DNA from: Opitutia bacterium ISCC 52
GTDB taxonomy: Bacteria > Verrucomicrobiota > Verrucomicrobiia > Opitutales > UBA2995
Length of the DNA stretch: 64,000 nucleotides
NCBI GenBank assembly: GCA_014529675.2
Contig: CP076040.1
Coordinates: forward strand, 3,553,894 to 3,617,893
Direction of reading: 5' to 3'
In this document: piece after piece, positions 40,929 through 47,385 of the stretch
How the letters are laid out: every line of letters begins with the position of its first letter
Numbering within the stretch: the stretch's first letter is position 1
Notes under the pieces: generated by a model
What the model was told of the DNA's origin: nothing
Database searches by the model: none
The model's input: the letters and a program-made list of their open reading frames with translations, nothing else
Position numbers and translations under genes: made by a program

Positions 40929-42167
40929 ATGTGGAAATTCGCCTTCCAGTTTCTTTTTGCACTCTCCTTCGGTATATCAGTCTCGGCCGCAGAGGTTTAC
41001 TGGCCTGGTTGGTTGGGACCCAATCGAGATGGGCAAGTAGATTACTTTAAACCTCCAGCTGAATGGCCACAATCGCTAACGAGCGATTGGAGCCTGGTAG
41101 TCGGTGAAGGTTCGGGGATGCCTGTCGTAGTCGAGGACCGAGTCTATCAACAGGCACGACAAAATGGAGAGGAAGTGGTGCGAGCGATAGATTTAAAATC
41201 CGGAGAAGTGATCTGGCAAAAAAGTTACCCGGTAAAATATCAAATACAGCACTTCGGCACAAGACACGGGAATGGACCACTCTCGAATCCAACCTGGGCC
41301 GATGGCCGACTCTTTACGCTGAGTGTTACAAATATTTTCTCTGCCTGGGATGCAGACTCCGGTGAACTGTTGTGGCGCAAAGATTATTCCGATCGATTCA
41401 GAAACGCTTATCCCGATTGGGGTGCCTCTTACTCACCCCTGGTTGATGGTGAGCAAGTCATCATGCACTTTGGGGGCGCAGGCGGTGGCATTCTGGCTGC
41501 CTTCGACGTTGCTACCGGAGAAGAACTCTGGACCGAAGGCAATGACGGGGCCTGCCATGCTTCTCCCATCCTCGTCGAACTTGAAGGCATCCGCCAAATC
41601 GTGGAATGGAACCACGACGCCGTAGTAGGCATCGAAAGCCAAACCGGGAAACGACTCTGGGACTATGATATGCCTCACCGAGGTTCGAGCCAGAATTCCC
41701 CTACTCCCGTCCACTACCAAGGCCGCCTCCTCATCGGTGGAGAAAACCGAGGCATTCGTAGCTTGGAGCCAAAATTAGAAAATGGGAAATGGTCGGTTAC
41801 AGAAAATTGGCACCAAAGAGGTGTATCGCTCAACATGGCCTCTGCCATCATCAACGGCGATAGCCTCTATGGAAAATCACACCTCAAACGGGGACAATTT
41901 TTTCGCCTCAACCCCATGACTGGTGAAACGATCTGGCTCGGGCCAGCTCGCATGGGAGAATATGCCACCTTCCTCAGTATTCCCGGACACATCTTGGTTC
42001 TAAAAGACGACGCAACTCTAGAAGTTCACAAAACAGACACAGAAGACTATGAAAGAGTTGCCGTTTATACAGTTGCTGAAAGCCCCACTTGGGCGGCGCC
42101 TGTTCTACTCAAAGATGGTTTCCTCATCAAAGACCGGATGAAGCTTTTCAAGTGGTCAATGGAATAG
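40929..42167 (+). CDS. Exported PQQ-like beta-propeller protein
   Basis: 412 residues with a signal peptide to about 21. YWPGWLGPNRDGQVDYF at the N-terminus and strands such as DLKSGEVIWQKSYP, DADSGELLWRKDY, DVATGEELWTEGND, ESQTGKRLWDYDM and NPMTGETIWLG give a PQQ-like propeller of the planctomycete/verrucomicrobial type. Catalytic function is not apparent. It lies about 100 nt after the barrel-like gene on the same strand. Confidence 0.9.
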   Translation: MWKFAFQFLFALSFGISVSAAEVYWPGWLGPNRDGQVDYFKPPAEWPQSLTSDWSLVVGEGSGMPVVVEDRVYQQARQNGEEVVRAIDLKSGEVIWQKSYPVKYQIQHFGTRHGNGPLSNPTWADGRLFTLSVTNIFSAWDADSGELLWRKDYSDRFRNAYPDWGASYSPLVDGEQVIMHFGGAGGGILAAFDVATGEELWTEGNDGACHASPILVELEGIRQIVEWNHDAVVGIESQTGKRLWDYDMPHRGSSQNSPTPVHYQGRLLIGGENRGIRSLEPKLENGKWSVTENWHQRGVSLNMASAIINGDSLYGKSHLKRGQFFRLNPMTGETIWLGPARMGEYATFLSIPGHILVLKDDATLEVHKTDTEDYERVAVYTVAESPTWAAPVLLKDGFLIKDRMKLFKWSME

Positions 42168-42332: not shown

Positions 42333-43547
42333 TTAGGCCCTTGCCTTCTGCAGTTCTTCCTTCACCCGAGTAACGACCGTTTCCAGGTGTTCCGGTTGCA
42401 GCATCCAGGTAGTGATATTGAAACCGTCTTCCCGCGGTCGGGCAACGGCAACAGATGGAGTGCCTTCCATGAGTGCATCTCTCACTTCGAATCCCGATAA
42501 GGTAAAGGCCCCAGGAGAAAAAGTAAGCATTAAGGTCGGGGCGGTATTGGGACTACTCGGAATGAAACTCTCGAGGGCAATACCTTTGATCGGAGACAGC
42601 TTTTCGGCCATCCAATCGATCTGGTTTTTCCAGCCTTTGTATTCCGCCTCGTAATCAATCTTGGTAAAGCGCTCAACCGCGATCCATAGAGCGACCAATT
42701 CTTCCTTGTTCACTTTCATGCCTCGGCCAATCCGGTCCGAACTGGGTGGACCGTTGAAACGAGCCGCCACGACCAGATCTTTTCTTCCCATCAATAATCC
42801 AGTGCTTTGTGGACCACGTATGGCCTTACCCCCGGAGATGGCAACCAGATCATAACCCATTTTAGTATATCGATAAAGATTCTCACGAGGAGGAATCCCA
42901 GCTGCCGCGTCGATGAAAGTGGGAATACCATGATCCTTCCCGATCTTTACAAATTCTTCGTGTTGGACGGGGCCATCGAGATTGTGCTCATCGGTAAAAT
43001 ATAGCATGGCTGTAAGGTCGTTGATGGCATCGAGCAGTTCTTGCTTCGTTTCTACGACCACGAGATCAACACCACAATTGGTGATGGCATGCGTATAACC
43101 CACGATGTGAGCTTTCTGAACGATCACCTCGTTCTTCATCCCGCTTAGATCAACCGGAATGCGTTTGGCTTTTTCCTCATCTATTCCAGTAAGGATCCCA
43201 GCGGTAGCCAGAGTCATGGCAGAGGCAGCTCCAGCCGTGACCATAGCCGCTTCACAGCCCACAAGCTCCGCAATATTTTCACCTACTGCATCGTGTAGGT
43301 CATCTAAGGATACATAGGAACCCGCAGTCTGCCGATAGGCATCAAGCACTTCCTCCGGCATCAAGCTGGCCGTCATGGTGGTATAAGCACCTGCCGCATT
43401 GATGATGGGTTTGATGCCAAGTTCGCCAAAGTAGTCGCGTGAAGGACCGGTCTCTGCAGCTTTGGCAGTTAAGGCGCCCCCCGCCATTGCACCGCCAATC
43501 ACAGGTAAACTGGAAAGGCGTTTGAGTAATTTCCTTCGGCTTAGCAT
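42333..43547 (-). CDS. Exported SelA-like PLP-dependent enzyme
   Basis: 404 residues. The N-terminus (MLSRRKLLKRLSSLPVIGG...) is a twin-arginine-type signal, followed by the SelA/DgaE-like fold: GIKPIINAAGAYTTM, VGCEAAMVTAGAASAM, FIDAAAGIPP (PLP-binding Asp) and SGGKAIRGPQSTGLL with the PLP lysine. Cytoplasmic relatives eliminate ammonia from amino sugars or amino acids (D-glucosaminate-6-phosphate ammonia-lyase) rather than make selenocysteine. Export is unusual and agrees with the signal peptides of both neighbours. Operon order is amidohydrolase, RidA, this gene (18-nt gap). Confidence 0.87.
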   Translation of the reverse strand: MLSRRKLLKRLSSLPVIGGAMAGGALTAKAAETGPSRDYFGELGIKPIINAAGAYTTMTASLMPEEVLDAYRQTAGSYVSLDDLHDAVGENIAELVGCEAAMVTAGAASAMTLATAGILTGIDEEKAKRIPVDLSGMKNEVIVQKAHIVGYTHAITNCGVDLVVVETKQELLDAINDLTAMLYFTDEHNLDGPVQHEEFVKIGKDHGIPTFIDAAAGIPPRENLYRYTKMGYDLVAISGGKAIRGPQSTGLLMGRKDLVVAARFNGPPSSDRIGRGMKVNKEELVALWIAVERFTKIDYEAEYKGWKNQIDWMAEKLSPIKGIALESFIPSSPNTAPTLMLTFSPGAFTLSGFEVRDALMEGTPSVAVARPREDGFNITTWMLQPEHLETVVTRVKEELQKARA

Positions 43548-43565
43548 GAATGAAATGGGCTTGAG

Positions 43566-44111
43566 TTACTCCGGAGCAATTTCGACGATCATCTCAATCT
43601 CAACGGCAATGTTGTTAGGTAAAGACCCCATACCCACAGCCGCCCGAGCTGGTTTTCCGGCATCACCGAAAATGGCAGTTAATACGGCTGTCGCCCCGTT
43701 TATGACAGCGGGTTGCTGAGTAAAGTCGGTCGGACAATTGACCATGCCATGCACTTTAACAACCCGTGTGACTCGATCAAGACTTCCGATTTCGTTTTTA
43801 AGAGAAGACAACAATGCGATCATGGTCAGGCGAGCGGCGTCCTTACCTTGTTCTATGGTAAGGTCCTTACCCACTTTGCCTTGGACAGCTCCTCCTTCTG
43901 GTTTCCTGGGACCGTGCCCGGATAAGAAAACCAGATTGCCAGTAGTTACGGCCGGGACAAAGTGATCATTTGGTTTCGCAGCGGTATTCAGAACAATTCC
44001 GAGTTCTTTCAACTTGGCTTCCGGACCAAGACTCTCTGCGGCAAAGGAAGCAAAAGGCCATGCCGTGACCAAGAGTAGTGTTTGGAGAATGGGGATTATT
44101 TTATTTATCAT
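43566..44111 (-). CDS. Exported RidA/YjgF-family deaminase
   Basis: 181 residues; about the first 24 form a signal peptide (MINKIIPILQTLLLVTAWPFASFA). The domain (about 35-181) has LVFLSGHGP, VVKVHGMVNCPTDF and PARAAVGMGSLPNNIAVEIEMI, carrying the key Arg and the late Glu of the family. RidA hydrolyses reactive enamines/imines released by PLP enzymes. Its start overlaps the amidohydrolase stop (ATGA) and it precedes the SelA-like gene, so it is well placed to process that enzyme's product in the periplasm (inference). Confidence 0.9.
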   Translation of the reverse strand: MINKIIPILQTLLLVTAWPFASFAAESLGPEAKLKELGIVLNTAAKPNDHFVPAVTTGNLVFLSGHGPRKPEGGAVQGKVGKDLTIEQGKDAARLTMIALLSSLKNEIGSLDRVTRVVKVHGMVNCPTDFTQQPAVINGATAVLTAIFGDAGKPARAAVGMGSLPNNIAVEIEMIVEIAPE

Positions 44112-45412
44112 TGTGGTGGATTAATTATGCGTTGCACTTCCGGGCGTCCTGGAGAGCGAGGGACATTAACTTCGTCCCAAGCAGGACTGGCAAGACCATT
44201 GAGATCCCAGACGACTTCACCTCCCAAGATCGTTAATTCGCAGCCCAATTTGTACTTTCCGTCAAAACGTGTCCTGGCGACATCCAGGAACCCAAAATTG
44301 CCTTCATGCTTTCGGAGGATTGCGACATCCGCTAAAGCCCCGACACTGAGGTGTCCGAGTTCTTCATCCATCTGAATGACCTTTGCTGGTTTCCAACTCG
44401 AGGCCTCAATAACTTCTTCCAGGGACATGCCAAGATTGAGAAACTTGGACATCACATTGAGCTGGTTCTTCATGGGACCATTCATACTTCCCGTGTGAAG
44501 GTCTGTGCTGATCGTCTGAGGACGCATTCCCTGCTCCAATGCTACGGTCGCAACGTTCCAACGAAAGCTGCCTCCGCCATGCCCCACATCCATAATGATG
44601 CCCCGGTCAATGGCCTCCATGACAAATGGCTTCAACTTACCGGAAAGATCTACAATCGATTCCCGTCCCAGCGCATCCGCAAAGCAATGAGTAAAGATAT
44701 CTCCGCGATTGAGCTCGTTCAGAAAGAGATGCTCAATGGACAAGGTTGGCTGAGCACGCCCGAAATCAACCATGACTGGTATGCCCACCCACTGGCCAGC
44801 TTCGACCGCTTTTTTAACCGGTGTCCAATCCGGGCCCTTGAAATGAGCCAACTTAATTCCGACGATGTATTCAGGGTACTCATACGCCATCATGGCTGCT
44901 AATTTAGGATCCATATCATTCAGATCCTGCTCGTCGGGATCTCCCCGCATACCCGCACCGACGATATTGAGAAAGGCTTTTACCCGAGTCTTGGATTTAT
45001 CAATGGTTTGGCGTTTAAATAGTTCGAAGTTCCGCCAGCCAGGACCCCCTGCATCGACAGCGGTCGTTACTCCATAAGGAAATGTGAATCCATCCGGTGG
45101 CAAAGCACTGTAACTATCTGCCAAATAGGCCCCTTCGGACGTTCCCCAAAATAAGTGAGCATGTATATCAATCAATCCAGGGGTCACATACAAACCCGAT
45201 GCATCCACCACTTTCGAGGCTGCGCTTTCAGGGATGGACGTTTCGACCGCTGCAATTCGGTCTCCTTGAATCGCCACATCGAAGGTACCGTTTCGGTCAT
45301 TTTTAGCGTCAATGACATGACCACCCTTCAGCAAGAGGTCGTAGTTTTGGCCGAAACTCCCAAGTGGGAAGGTCAAAGCAAACAAGCAACAAATAAAACG
45401 TGTTTGAAACAT
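44108..45412 (-). CDS. Exported amidohydrolase, dihydroorotase-like
   Basis: 434 residues with a signal peptide to about 21. DVAIQGDRIAAVE and GLYVTPGLIDIHAHLFWG hold the N-terminal beta-sandwich and the first HxH metal site; later motifs are KLAHFKG (possible carboxylated Lys region), THCFAD, DVGHGGGSF and STDLHTGSM (metal-ligand Asp). This is the group usually found with SelA-like enzymes and annotated as D-aminoacylase or dihydroorotase; deacetylation of an N-acyl or O-acyl acid is likely. It is the first gene of the trio, divergent from the sulfatase at 45676. Confidence 0.88.
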   Translation of the reverse strand: MFQTRFICCLFALTFPLGSFGQNYDLLLKGGHVIDAKNDRNGTFDVAIQGDRIAAVETSIPESAASKVVDASGLYVTPGLIDIHAHLFWGTSEGAYLADSYSALPPDGFTFPYGVTTAVDAGGPGWRNFELFKRQTIDKSKTRVKAFLNIVGAGMRGDPDEQDLNDMDPKLAAMMAYEYPEYIVGIKLAHFKGPDWTPVKKAVEAGQWVGIPVMVDFGRAQPTLSIEHLFLNELNRGDIFTHCFADALGRESIVDLSGKLKPFVMEAIDRGIIMDVGHGGGSFRWNVATVALEQGMRPQTISTDLHTGSMNGPMKNQLNVMSKFLNLGMSLEEVIEASSWKPAKVIQMDEELGHLSVGALADVAILRKHEGNFGFLDVARTRFDGKYKLGCELTILGGEVVWDLNGLASPAWDEVNVPRSPGRPEVQRIINPPQ

Positions 45413-45675
45413 AGATCGGCGAATGATGAGCGAGAACGACTTAACTGGAAACTTTCCTATTTTAACGAGCGTGGCAAGTCTTCGCCATAGCCCTAAAGAT
45501 TATTTTAGGAACAAGGATTTAATATGCTTCCAAAAAGAGATCCGGAATGGAGAGGCGCTTTAGTCTCAAATCATTCCGACAATTAATCCAGCTCACTTAT
45601 ACATCGAAGATTGCCTCCGTGCGCTTTAAGAAATTTCCTGGTTATACCGTGATAACTTTTTCCATCCACAACGAC

Positions 45676-47385
45676 ATGCGTGACTATTTAAAATCTGTCC
45701 TGGCATTCATACTCTCTATAACCGGCACACAGAGTCTGCTAGCTGCAGATAAACCAAACATCGTCGCCATTATTGCTGATGATCATGGCGTGTATCATTC
45801 CACCGTCTATGGCTCCAAGGAGCAAAGAACACCTCACATGCAATCCTTAGCGGATGAGGGCATGACCTTCTCGCGTGCGTATGTTGCTTCGCCAGCCTGT
45901 GCCCCCAGCCGACATGCGTTGATGTCCGGCCTGATGCCTTATAAAAATGGAGTCGTAGGTAATCACGAGAATTCAAATTACAAACTGACACCTTCAGAAG
46001 GATTGATACAGCGACTACTTGATGCGGGCTATGAGGTGGTCTTCCGAGGCAAGGTCACTCACGGCAATGGAAGAGGTGTCATCCCCAACGAAGTGGTAAG
46101 ACTCCCAGGTAGTAACAACCTGCTGGATCCAGCAAACGTGGAAGCATACCTTGAGAAGCGGGAAGACAAATCCAAACCCGTGGCCCTGTTTATTGGGCCA
46201 ACTGACACTCATACGATTTGGCCGATCGAGCCGGACGAGGTTCATTTCAATCCAAAAGATGCGGTGCTACCTCCCAAGACCTTCGATATCCCTGAAGCGC
46301 GCCAATTAATGGCCCGTTACAACCAGTCTGTTGAAAACGTCGACACAGCGGTCGGCAAAGTACGCGAAATTGTCAAACGACAGCTCGACGAAGACAACAC
46401 CCTCATCCTTTACACGTCCGATCATGGGCAGAATTGGGCGTTTGGAAAGTGGTCGCTTTACGAAACGGGCGTGCGTATTCCACTCATAGCTGTATGGCTC
46501 GGAAAGATTAAGCCCCAATCCACAACCGATGCCATGGTTAGCTGGATTGATTTAATCCCGACCTTTATCGACATCGCAGGCGCACCAATCCCAAAGGGTA
46601 TTGATGGCAAGTCTTTCAAAAACGTATTGCTGGGTGAAACCGACAGCCACCGTAAGGAGATCTTCACGGTCCACAAAGGCGACAAGACCGTGAACGTATA
46701 TCCCATCCGAGCGGTAAGAACGGATAAATGGAAATACATGCTCAACCTGTTCCCAGAGTTCTACAATACGACCCACATGGATGTGAAGGTCTTCCGAGAA
46801 GGACACACCAGAGCCGGTCAAGAAAACCAGCATTATTTTTATGACTGGAACGCCTGGGAGCAAGCAGCCCAAAAGAACCAGGAGGCTGCCCTGTTCATGC
46901 ATCGCTATCATGCCAGACCCAAAGAAGAGCTGTACATGATCGAGGAAGACCCTTACGAAGAAAACAACCTCGCTTACGATCCAAGATATGCGGATGTCCT
47001 AGCCTCCATGCGCAAGCTGATTAAAGACCGCATGAAAGAAGTCGGGGACGACCGGTCCCTGTCGGGCACACCCAGACTTCTGGCAGACCACCCACTGCCT
47101 CCGGCCATTCAGCTCTACTACCCCAATGGAGGAGAAACGTTGCATCCCGGGCAAACCACAGACATCGCCTGGAGCAACTTCTGGGCAGGCACTCAAACTG
47201 TCAAACTGGAATACAAAGATGGTCGTAATTGGAAAGTCATTACAAAATCAACTCCACACAACGGCCACTACGCCTGGCGCGTTCCAGTGATCGCATCTGA
47301 CTCAGTAAGTCTCCGGATCAGTTCAGCTGATGGAAACACCTTCGACGAAAGTGACCAAACCTTTTCCATTTCACCCAAACGGTAA
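45676..47385 (+). CDS. Sulfatase with C-terminal Ig-like domain
   Basis: 569 residues from ATG 45676, which starts a signal peptide (MRDYLKSVLAFILSI); the open frame back to 45547 lacks signal character. The S1 sulfatase domain has AIIADDHGVY, the formylglycine motif C75-A-P-S-R79, FRGKVTHG and LYTSDHGQNW. After about residue 475 a second domain begins with YYPNGGETLHPGQTTDIAWS and ends DESDQTFSI, which resembles the Kre9/KNH-like Ig fold. It is 6 nt upstream of a GH43 gene, so desulfation and glycoside cleavage are probably coupled. Confidence 0.92.
   Translation: MRDYLKSVLAFILSITGTQSLLAADKPNIVAIIADDHGVYHSTVYGSKEQRTPHMQSLADEGMTFSRAYVASPACAPSRHALMSGLMPYKNGVVGNHENSNYKLTPSEGLIQRLLDAGYEVVFRGKVTHGNGRGVIPNEVVRLPGSNNLLDPANVEAYLEKREDKSKPVALFIGPTDTHTIWPIEPDEVHFNPKDAVLPPKTFDIPEARQLMARYNQSVENVDTAVGKVREIVKRQLDEDNTLILYTSDHGQNWAFGKWSLYETGVRIPLIAVWLGKIKPQSTTDAMVSWIDLIPTFIDIAGAPIPKGIDGKSFKNVLLGETDSHRKEIFTVHKGDKTVNVYPIRAVRTDKWKYMLNLFPEFYNTTHMDVKVFREGHTRAGQENQHYFYDWNAWEQAAQKNQEAALFMHRYHARPKEELYMIEEDPYEENNLAYDPRYADVLASMRKLIKDRMKEVGDDRSLSGTPRLLADHPLPPAIQLYYPNGGETLHPGQTTDIAWSNFWAGTQTVKLEYKDGRNWKVITKSTPHNGHYAWRVPVIASDSVSLRISSADGNTFDESDQTFSISPKR

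Follow-up and report, generated by a model that had tools for sequence, protein, structure and literature searches.

A 64,000-nucleotide stretch of the genome of Opitutia bacterium ISCC 52 (contig CP076040.1, positions 3,553,894 to 3,617,893; hereafter the window) carries three genes on its minus strand at 42333-45412, encoding an amidohydrolase, a Rid-family protein and a SelA-like pyridoxal 5'-phosphate (PLP) enzyme. All three products start with an export signal. At the sequence level there is good support for their conserved export, as these signals persist in related loci, and we consider it very probable that the three proteins leave the cytoplasm. Rid proteins and DgaE-type ammonia-lyases have been studied mostly as cytoplasmic enzymes. 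The component families and their chemistry are already known from cytoplasmic pathways; the exported variant appears to be new. No earlier description of an exported trio conserved as a unit was found in the open-access literature searched (most subscription papers lie outside it), which included excerpts of PMC9537276, PMC9529869, PMC12343721, PMC5053998 and PMC7688666.

Signals were called by a written rule for twin-arginine translocation (Tat), general secretory (Sec) and lipoprotein signals, and by eye. The amidohydrolase begins with MFQTRFICCLFALTFPLGSFG, followed by QNYD; the Rid protein with MINKIIPILQTLLLVTAWPFASFA, followed by AES; and the PLP enzyme with MLSRRKLLKRLSSLPVIGGAMAGGALTAKA, followed by AE, the cleavage points being estimated by eye in each case. 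The last of these carries an SRRxLLK Tat-type motif, and a TatC gene was found in the window's genome. An earlier note on this DNA had read two Sec signals and a Tat-type twin-arginine signal in these proteins, and that observation was confirmed. R4 and R5 of the Tat-type signal are invariant in 53/53 aligned PLP enzymes (window included). The 52 relatives in this alignment (A3) were chosen from 79 listed, all already Tat-called, so the invariance is partly by construction; the filter had little effect because only one ORF (open reading frame) among the relatives, a fragment, had gone uncalled, as set out below.

The signal survey covered 83 loci, i.e. the window, L014, L018 and L021-L100 (L and G numbers are our handles for loci and genomes). 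For this set the best 80 of 186 confirmed relatives were kept, ranked by similarity in a scan with a six-relative alignment; the query contained the signal, so the percentages describe the exported clade and not all homologues. The PLP enzyme was Tat-called in 86 of 87 ORFs, the exception being the L069 fragment. Rid signals were called in 57/63 ORFs and amidohydrolase signals in 32/42, the remaining ten being five cut by contig ends and five lacking a call; three of the latter five (L023, L056 and L075) have hydrophobic N-termini by eye. Within the exported clade, then, signals are retained. The earlier note had proposed surveying whether the exported trio is conserved, and at the 31 loci with a complete trio (all on one strand and spanning no more than 4.5 kb) the signals are kept jointly: the PLP enzyme is Tat-called in 31/31, the Rid protein has a signal in 31/31, and the amidohydrolase has one in 25 of the 28 with uncut starts.

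Cytoplasmic-type homologues gave the opposite result. Across 21 such loci, signals were found in 0/21 PLP enzymes, 0/14 Rid proteins and 0/4 amidohydrolases (for the controls L101-L107 the flanks extended no further than about 1.5 kb, which brought few amidohydrolases into view), and at the three cytoplasmic loci with a complete trio no gene has a signal. The case that the note had named as damaging, i.e. clusters of the same type lacking signals, was sought and does exist, for example in the Alphaproteobacteria Aminobacter (L138), Phyllobacterium (L139) and Salipiger (L141), which hold the same three families as the window trio but adjoin ATP-binding cassette (ABC) transporter genes; yet in these clusters all three genes are signal-free together.

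The best 80 relatives belong mainly to Bacteroidota and Acidobacteriota, and also to Verrucomicrobiota. Planctomycetota, Balneolota, Actinomycetota and Campylobacterota are the labels of one record each; those of the last two phyla group with acidobacterial rows, and they may be metagenome-assembled genomes (MAGs) that were binned wrongly. The window's PLP enzyme shares 69% identity with its counterpart in L021, an uncultured Opitutales MAG. L021 and L022 were taken as the same sequences as pieces of G004 and G002, and L015 therefore lies outside the exported set. A maximum-likelihood tree was built from 101 domain sequences with the signal left out (85 exported and 16 cytoplasmic, bootstrap not settled), omitting seven short-alignment rows, i.e. 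the cytoplasmic L017, L020, L133, L134 and L142 together with L092 and the L069 fragment. In this tree 83 of the 85 exported PLP enzymes form one clade (support 99/96). The other two rows (L097 at 7819 and L018 at 7610) fall outside it with unsure placement, and a second origin of the exported enzyme is therefore possible. The window's genus (5 rows) lies inside a 41-row clade (100/98) in which Bacteroidota supply the remaining 36 rows, and transfer from Bacteroidota to this genus appears likely, the branches that place the genus inside being below star level (82/92 and 83/96). In the window's phylum, 8 of 387 sampled genomes match the PLP enzyme at E<=1e-40, and the seven besides the window's own (L101-L107) are signal-free. 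Three of five congeners searched (G001, G002 and G004) have the PLP gene; G003 (weak match only) and G005 (none) gave no clear one. By genome search the PLP gene is single-copy in the window's genome, which has one full-length PRK09237-type amidohydrolase and one short weak match. PLP-enzyme genes form a tandem pair in congener G001 (L014:6663-9321), and each of the two encodes a twin-arginine signal.

The best curated match of the PLP enzyme is TIGR01437, at 160.1 bits and below the cut-off of 385.3. It passes the gathering thresholds of Pfam Aminotran_5 and Pfam SelA (30.5 vs 22.8). True SelA, i.e. L-seryl-tRNA(Sec) selenium transferase, was rejected as an identity (TIGR00474, 38.8 vs 267.9 bits), only the broad Pfam SelA model being passed; the earlier note's label of 'SelA-like' is correct at the superfamily level and does not extend to the curated equivalog. 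The AlphaFold model, made from a 53-row alignment, has a predicted local distance difference test (pLDDT) score of 89.2 and a predicted template modelling (pTM) score of 0.84, with residues 14-29 unstructured (pLDDT <50). The stretch after the twin arginine (residues 11-19; consensus LSxLPLxGG, with P15 near-invariant) is conserved beyond the need of the signal's hydrophobic part, although the model leaves it unstructured.

Among solved structures the model is closest to Cap15 (8t7j; Z 38.9, 29% identity), which Foldseek also puts first, and to DGL (7lc0; Z 37.4, 27%), with SelA structures after both (Z 25.3-26.8). The entry title of 8t7j describes an oxygen- and PLP-dependent enzyme. Cap15 presumably has a role in capuramycin biosynthesis, and we know of no signal-type extension in it. 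The window enzyme is like DGL in fold, in its PLP lysine and in one arginine: K241 aligns with DGL chain position 213 and is invariant in 53/53 aligned PLP enzymes and kept in 85/85 exported rows, and R255 is the equivalent of DGL R226, the alignment reaching DGL residue 286. It is unlike DGL in scoring below the DgaE cut-offs, in a shorter His163 loop (by two residues across the exported family) and in its export signal.

The amidohydrolase scores 425.2 bits against NF006689 (PRK09237), above the cut-off of 371, and belongs to that family. Its metal-site set HxH, K, H, H, D is complete (H84, H86, K187, H242, H278 and D304), the roles of these residues being those we assume from the amidohydrolase superfamily; all are kept in ungapped relatives except H278, altered in 2/40.

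The Rid protein passes both PF14588 (50.8 bits, gathering 35) and PF01042 (50.4, gathering 27.3) and falls below the cut-off of NCBIfam TIGR00004 (33.2 against 106.25). Two types of exported-looking Rid occur among the relatives, i.e. standard RidA with a Tat signal, which in Bacteroidota loci lies mostly immediately upstream of the PLP gene, and the PF14588 type with a Sec or lipoprotein-like signal, found in the window's genus and in eight Bacteroidota loci (L023, L029, L031, L036, L048, L056, L061 and L067). The PF14588-type proteins of the cytoplasmic clusters L101-L106 and L019 are without a signal. Rid outside the cytoplasm has precedent: according to excerpts of PMC5053998, a RidA protein in Chlamydomonas forms a periplasmic complex with an amino acid oxidase, and Gluconacetobacter has an oxidase, predicted to be periplasmic, whose gene clusters with ridA.

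Gene neighbourhoods were counted at 81 loci (L014, L015, L018 and L023-L100) over at most six genes each side, many being cut by contig ends, and neighbour families were assigned by Pfam from one representative each, except for the sulfatase. The recurring neighbours were RraA-like proteins (16 loci), GSDH with cytochrome c (14), SMP-30/gluconolactonase (11) and SBF symporters (11); a sulfatase-like gene, identified by reading, stood at 12. At L024 and L026 the order is GSDH, lactonase, amidohydrolase, SBF, RraA, Rid, PLP enzyme. Most RraA-like, GSDH and lactonase neighbours with an intact start begin signal- or lipobox-like by eye, as do all members of the Granulicella cluster (RraA, two PLP enzymes, Rid, amidohydrolase and lactonase), which have signal-like N-termini. 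The trio of congener G001 adjoins a GSDH-cytochrome gene and another gene that, by reading, is enolase-superfamily-like and encodes a twin-arginine N-terminus. The window's genome has eight RraA-like matches, of which four were examined, three having signal-like N-termini and one not, and 12 GSDH matches, of which both of the two examined look exported and carry a cytochrome-type CxxCH.

We propose that the trio acts as a periplasmic catabolic module. The Sec-exported amidohydrolase would act on an N-acylated compound resembling an amino acid and strip its acyl group; an N-acetyl amino-sugar acid, e.g. 2-acetamido-2-deoxygluconate (GlcNAc1A), is the likeliest substrate. The PLP enzyme would fold around PLP in the cytoplasm, be exported by Tat and then dehydrate the freed amino-sugar acid in the manner of D-glucosaminate-type ammonia-lyases. 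The resulting enamine/imine would be hydrolysed by the exported Rid, yielding a 2-keto-3-deoxy acid and ammonia. Where relatives have an exported RraA-like aldolase and an SBF symporter, as some do, these may process and import the product. For PvdN, a Tat-exported PLP enzyme, a search of the open-access literature gave no paper. The three-step route of deacylation, ammonia elimination and imine hydrolysis is in our judgement somewhat probable. The amino-sugar acid is a favoured guess at the substrate that falls a little short of probable, and export and route taken jointly, with this guess attached, appear evenly balanced.

The proposed chemistry fits the enzyme families and also an experimentally demonstrated cytoplasmic pathway of other families, the ong cluster of Pseudoalteromonas prydzensis, which in the excerpted text of PMC9537276 converts GlcNAc1A to 2-keto-3-deoxygluconate (KDG), acetate and ammonia. 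There OngB deacetylates GlcNAc1A, OngC produces KDG and ammonia from the resulting 2-amino-2-deoxygluconate (GlcN1A), and growth on GlcNAc1A requires the RidA protein OngD, whose role is given as unknown in that excerpt. The ong cluster is like the window trio in setting a deacetylase, a PLP deaminase and RidA on one substrate. It is unlike the trio in that OngB most resembles D-aminoacylase, a cytoplasmic location is predicted for OngB and OngC, and OngC has PLP fold type III (same excerpt), whereas the window PLP enzyme is modelled as class-V-type (SelA, DGL, Cap15). A haloarchaeal DgaE homologue lies near chitinases, together with RutC-family and glucose dehydrogenase genes, with glucosaminate-6-phosphate as its proposed substrate (PMC12343721, in part). 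We favour the periplasmic module because signals and clustering are conserved while the cytoplasmic sisters are signal-free and 83 exported PLP enzymes form one clade; because the amidohydrolase has the family and metal site, the PLP enzyme has a DGL-like fold with its lysine kept throughout, and TatC is present; and because some relatives have sugar-acid type neighbours and ong has the same reaction order.

Several observations weigh against this reading. None of the extra neighbour families (RraA, GSDH, lactonase, SBF) stands beside the window trio, and a Rid gene was seen in 53/83 exported loci and not in 30/83, in some for contig ends. In the ong oxidative chitin pathway a lytic polysaccharide monooxygenase (LPMO) supplies C1-oxidised chitin. 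The window's genome (97.8% complete) has no LPMO_10 match, and LPMO-fed chitin oxidation in this organism was rejected on that ground; the genome has one GH20 match. The PLP enzyme scores 143.3 bits against the DgaE model NF047797, below the cut-off of 600, and Cap15 is as near a structure to it as DGL. DGL His163 is absent from most exported rows, with an adjacent His in 13/85, window included; window H188 aligns with DGL H162 beside a gap at 163, although the loop lengths differ and the match is unsure. Cytoplasmic rows have a His in the 163 region in 7/16 and none in 9/16. DGL forms a substituted aminoacrylate, and the wild type releases the imine via His163 whereas H163A releases the enamine (PMC9529869, in part). 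It is possible that the exported family releases a reactive enamine, hence a need for Rid, although Rid presence does not track His loss: a link between the two was not supported, as a Rid gene accompanies 12/13 His rows and 44/72 non-His exported rows. Finally, a similar, lax signal rule was also passed by 311/596 other ORFs of at least 150 amino acids in the relatives' loci (98 Tat and 213 Sec, lipoprotein or transmembrane), in ORF calls that were greedy and in some cases spurious.

This last count is a point in favour of the proteins working in the cytoplasm, with N-terminal stretches that are start-site errors or chance. With single signals so frequent there, finding three in one genome would by itself count for little. 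Against chance stand their joint recurrence across phyla in selected loci, their absence from cytoplasmic sister clusters and the retention of the twin arginine across phyla; start-site error or chance was rejected on this conservation, and we regard a cytoplasmic trio as highly improbable. An exported trio with another substrate is a nearer competitor, which we consider rather unlikely. Here the amidohydrolase would act on an N-acyl or ester precursor and free a D-amino acid (e.g. of D-Ser/D-Thr or cell-wall type), which the PLP enzyme would deaminate in the periplasm, mainly for nitrogen scavenging. OngC also deaminates D-serine and D-threonine (excerpt of PMC9537276), and the three alphaproteobacterial trios adjoin ABC transporter genes, not sugar kinases; but RraA-like, GSDH and gluconolactonase neighbours in some exported loci indicate sugar acids, and the structurally nearest characterised lyase acts on glucosaminate-6-phosphate. 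The rank of 8t7j in both structure searches could instead point to a Cap15-like, O2-dependent amine oxidation, with Rid hydrolysing the imine and export keeping peroxide out of the cytoplasm. We think this distinctly improbable: the Z gap to DGL is small and both structures are about 27-29% identical, the window family has no specific Cap15 feature among those tested, and the conserved neighbours of sugar-acid type are also in keeping with a lyase.

The periplasmic module may also form part of a complete oxidative amino-sugar pathway outside the cytoplasm, to which Rid of two types would have been recruited; we advance this tentatively and think it on balance unlikely. In such a pathway a periplasmic sugar dehydrogenase with cytochrome c would oxidise an N-acetyl amino sugar to a lactone, a lactonase would open it, the amidohydrolase would deacetylate the product, and the PLP ammonia-lyase and Rid would give the 2-keto-3-deoxy acid and ammonia; an exported RraA-type aldolase would then cleave this acid and the SBF symporter import the product. 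Enamine-releasing PLP chemistry would thereby be kept apart from cytoplasmic PLP enzymes. If the exported pair is conserved as proposed, reactive enamine chemistry and PLP catalysis would also be periplasmic, with PLP carried out by Tat, and N-acyl amino-sugar acids would be usable without prior import. Many Bacteroidota and Acidobacteriota genes whose sole annotation is class-V aminotransferase, RidA family or amidohydrolase/deacetylase would thereby gain a function.

The three ORFs lie where the earlier note had placed them and with the tight spacing that it described (Table 1). The flanking genes, both on the plus strand, are no continuation of the three-gene unit: one, a PQQ-like beta-propeller gene (40929-42167), is convergent with the trio, and the other, a sulfatase-like gene (45547-47385), is divergent.

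Table 1. Features of the exported trio, in window coordinates
Feature	Coordinates	Strand	Basis
Amidohydrolase/deacetylase, 434 amino acids, PRK09237 family, Sec-type signal	44108-45412	-	NF006689 score, metal-site residues
Sec-type signal of amidohydrolase, residues 1-21 (end estimated by eye)	45350-45412	-	Sequence; signal in 25/28 uncut amidohydrolases of complete trios
ATGA overlap of amidohydrolase stop and Rid start, 4 nucleotides	44108-44111	-	Sequence
Rid-family protein, 181 amino acids, PF14588 type, Sec-type signal	43566-44111	-	PF14588 and PF01042 scores
Sec-type signal of Rid, residues 1-24 (end estimated by eye)	44040-44111	-	Sequence, rule-based call
Gap between Rid and PLP enzyme, 18 nucleotides	43548-43565	-	Sequence
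SelA/DgaE-like PLP enzyme, 404 amino acids, PLP lysine K241	42333-43547	-	TIGR01437 (below cut-off), Pfam, AlphaFold model
Tat-type signal of PLP enzyme, SRRKLLK, residues 1-30 (end estimated by eye)	43458-43547	-	R4/R5 invariance, unstructured in model, TatC

Some further observations concern related genes. The Granulicella plasmid pACIX902 carries, in the same cluster as its trio relatives, a second, divergent SelA-like enzyme (L018:7701-9299). Its N-terminus is of twin-arginine type, it is extended at the C-terminus, and its place in the tree is outside the main exported clade. The three RraA proteins of the window's genome with signal-like N-termini are at L126:1074-1994, L127:1004-1948 and L128:1338-2321, and two of them adjoin enolase-superfamily-like genes (by reading). 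Downstream of the PLP gene of congener G004 (L013:3571-4598) there is a toxin-antitoxin-type pair by reading, i.e. a prevent-host-death-like protein and a zeta-toxin-like ATPase. The window's genome also has a second Rid with a signal-like N-terminus near 1.43 Mb (L150:4700-5305, plus strand; also L146), which adjoins tail to tail a class-V-aminotransferase-like PLP gene (L150:5307-6575, minus strand; identity by reading) whose product has a lipobox-like N-terminus, FTSGC, i.e. another exported-looking Rid/PLP pair in the same genome.

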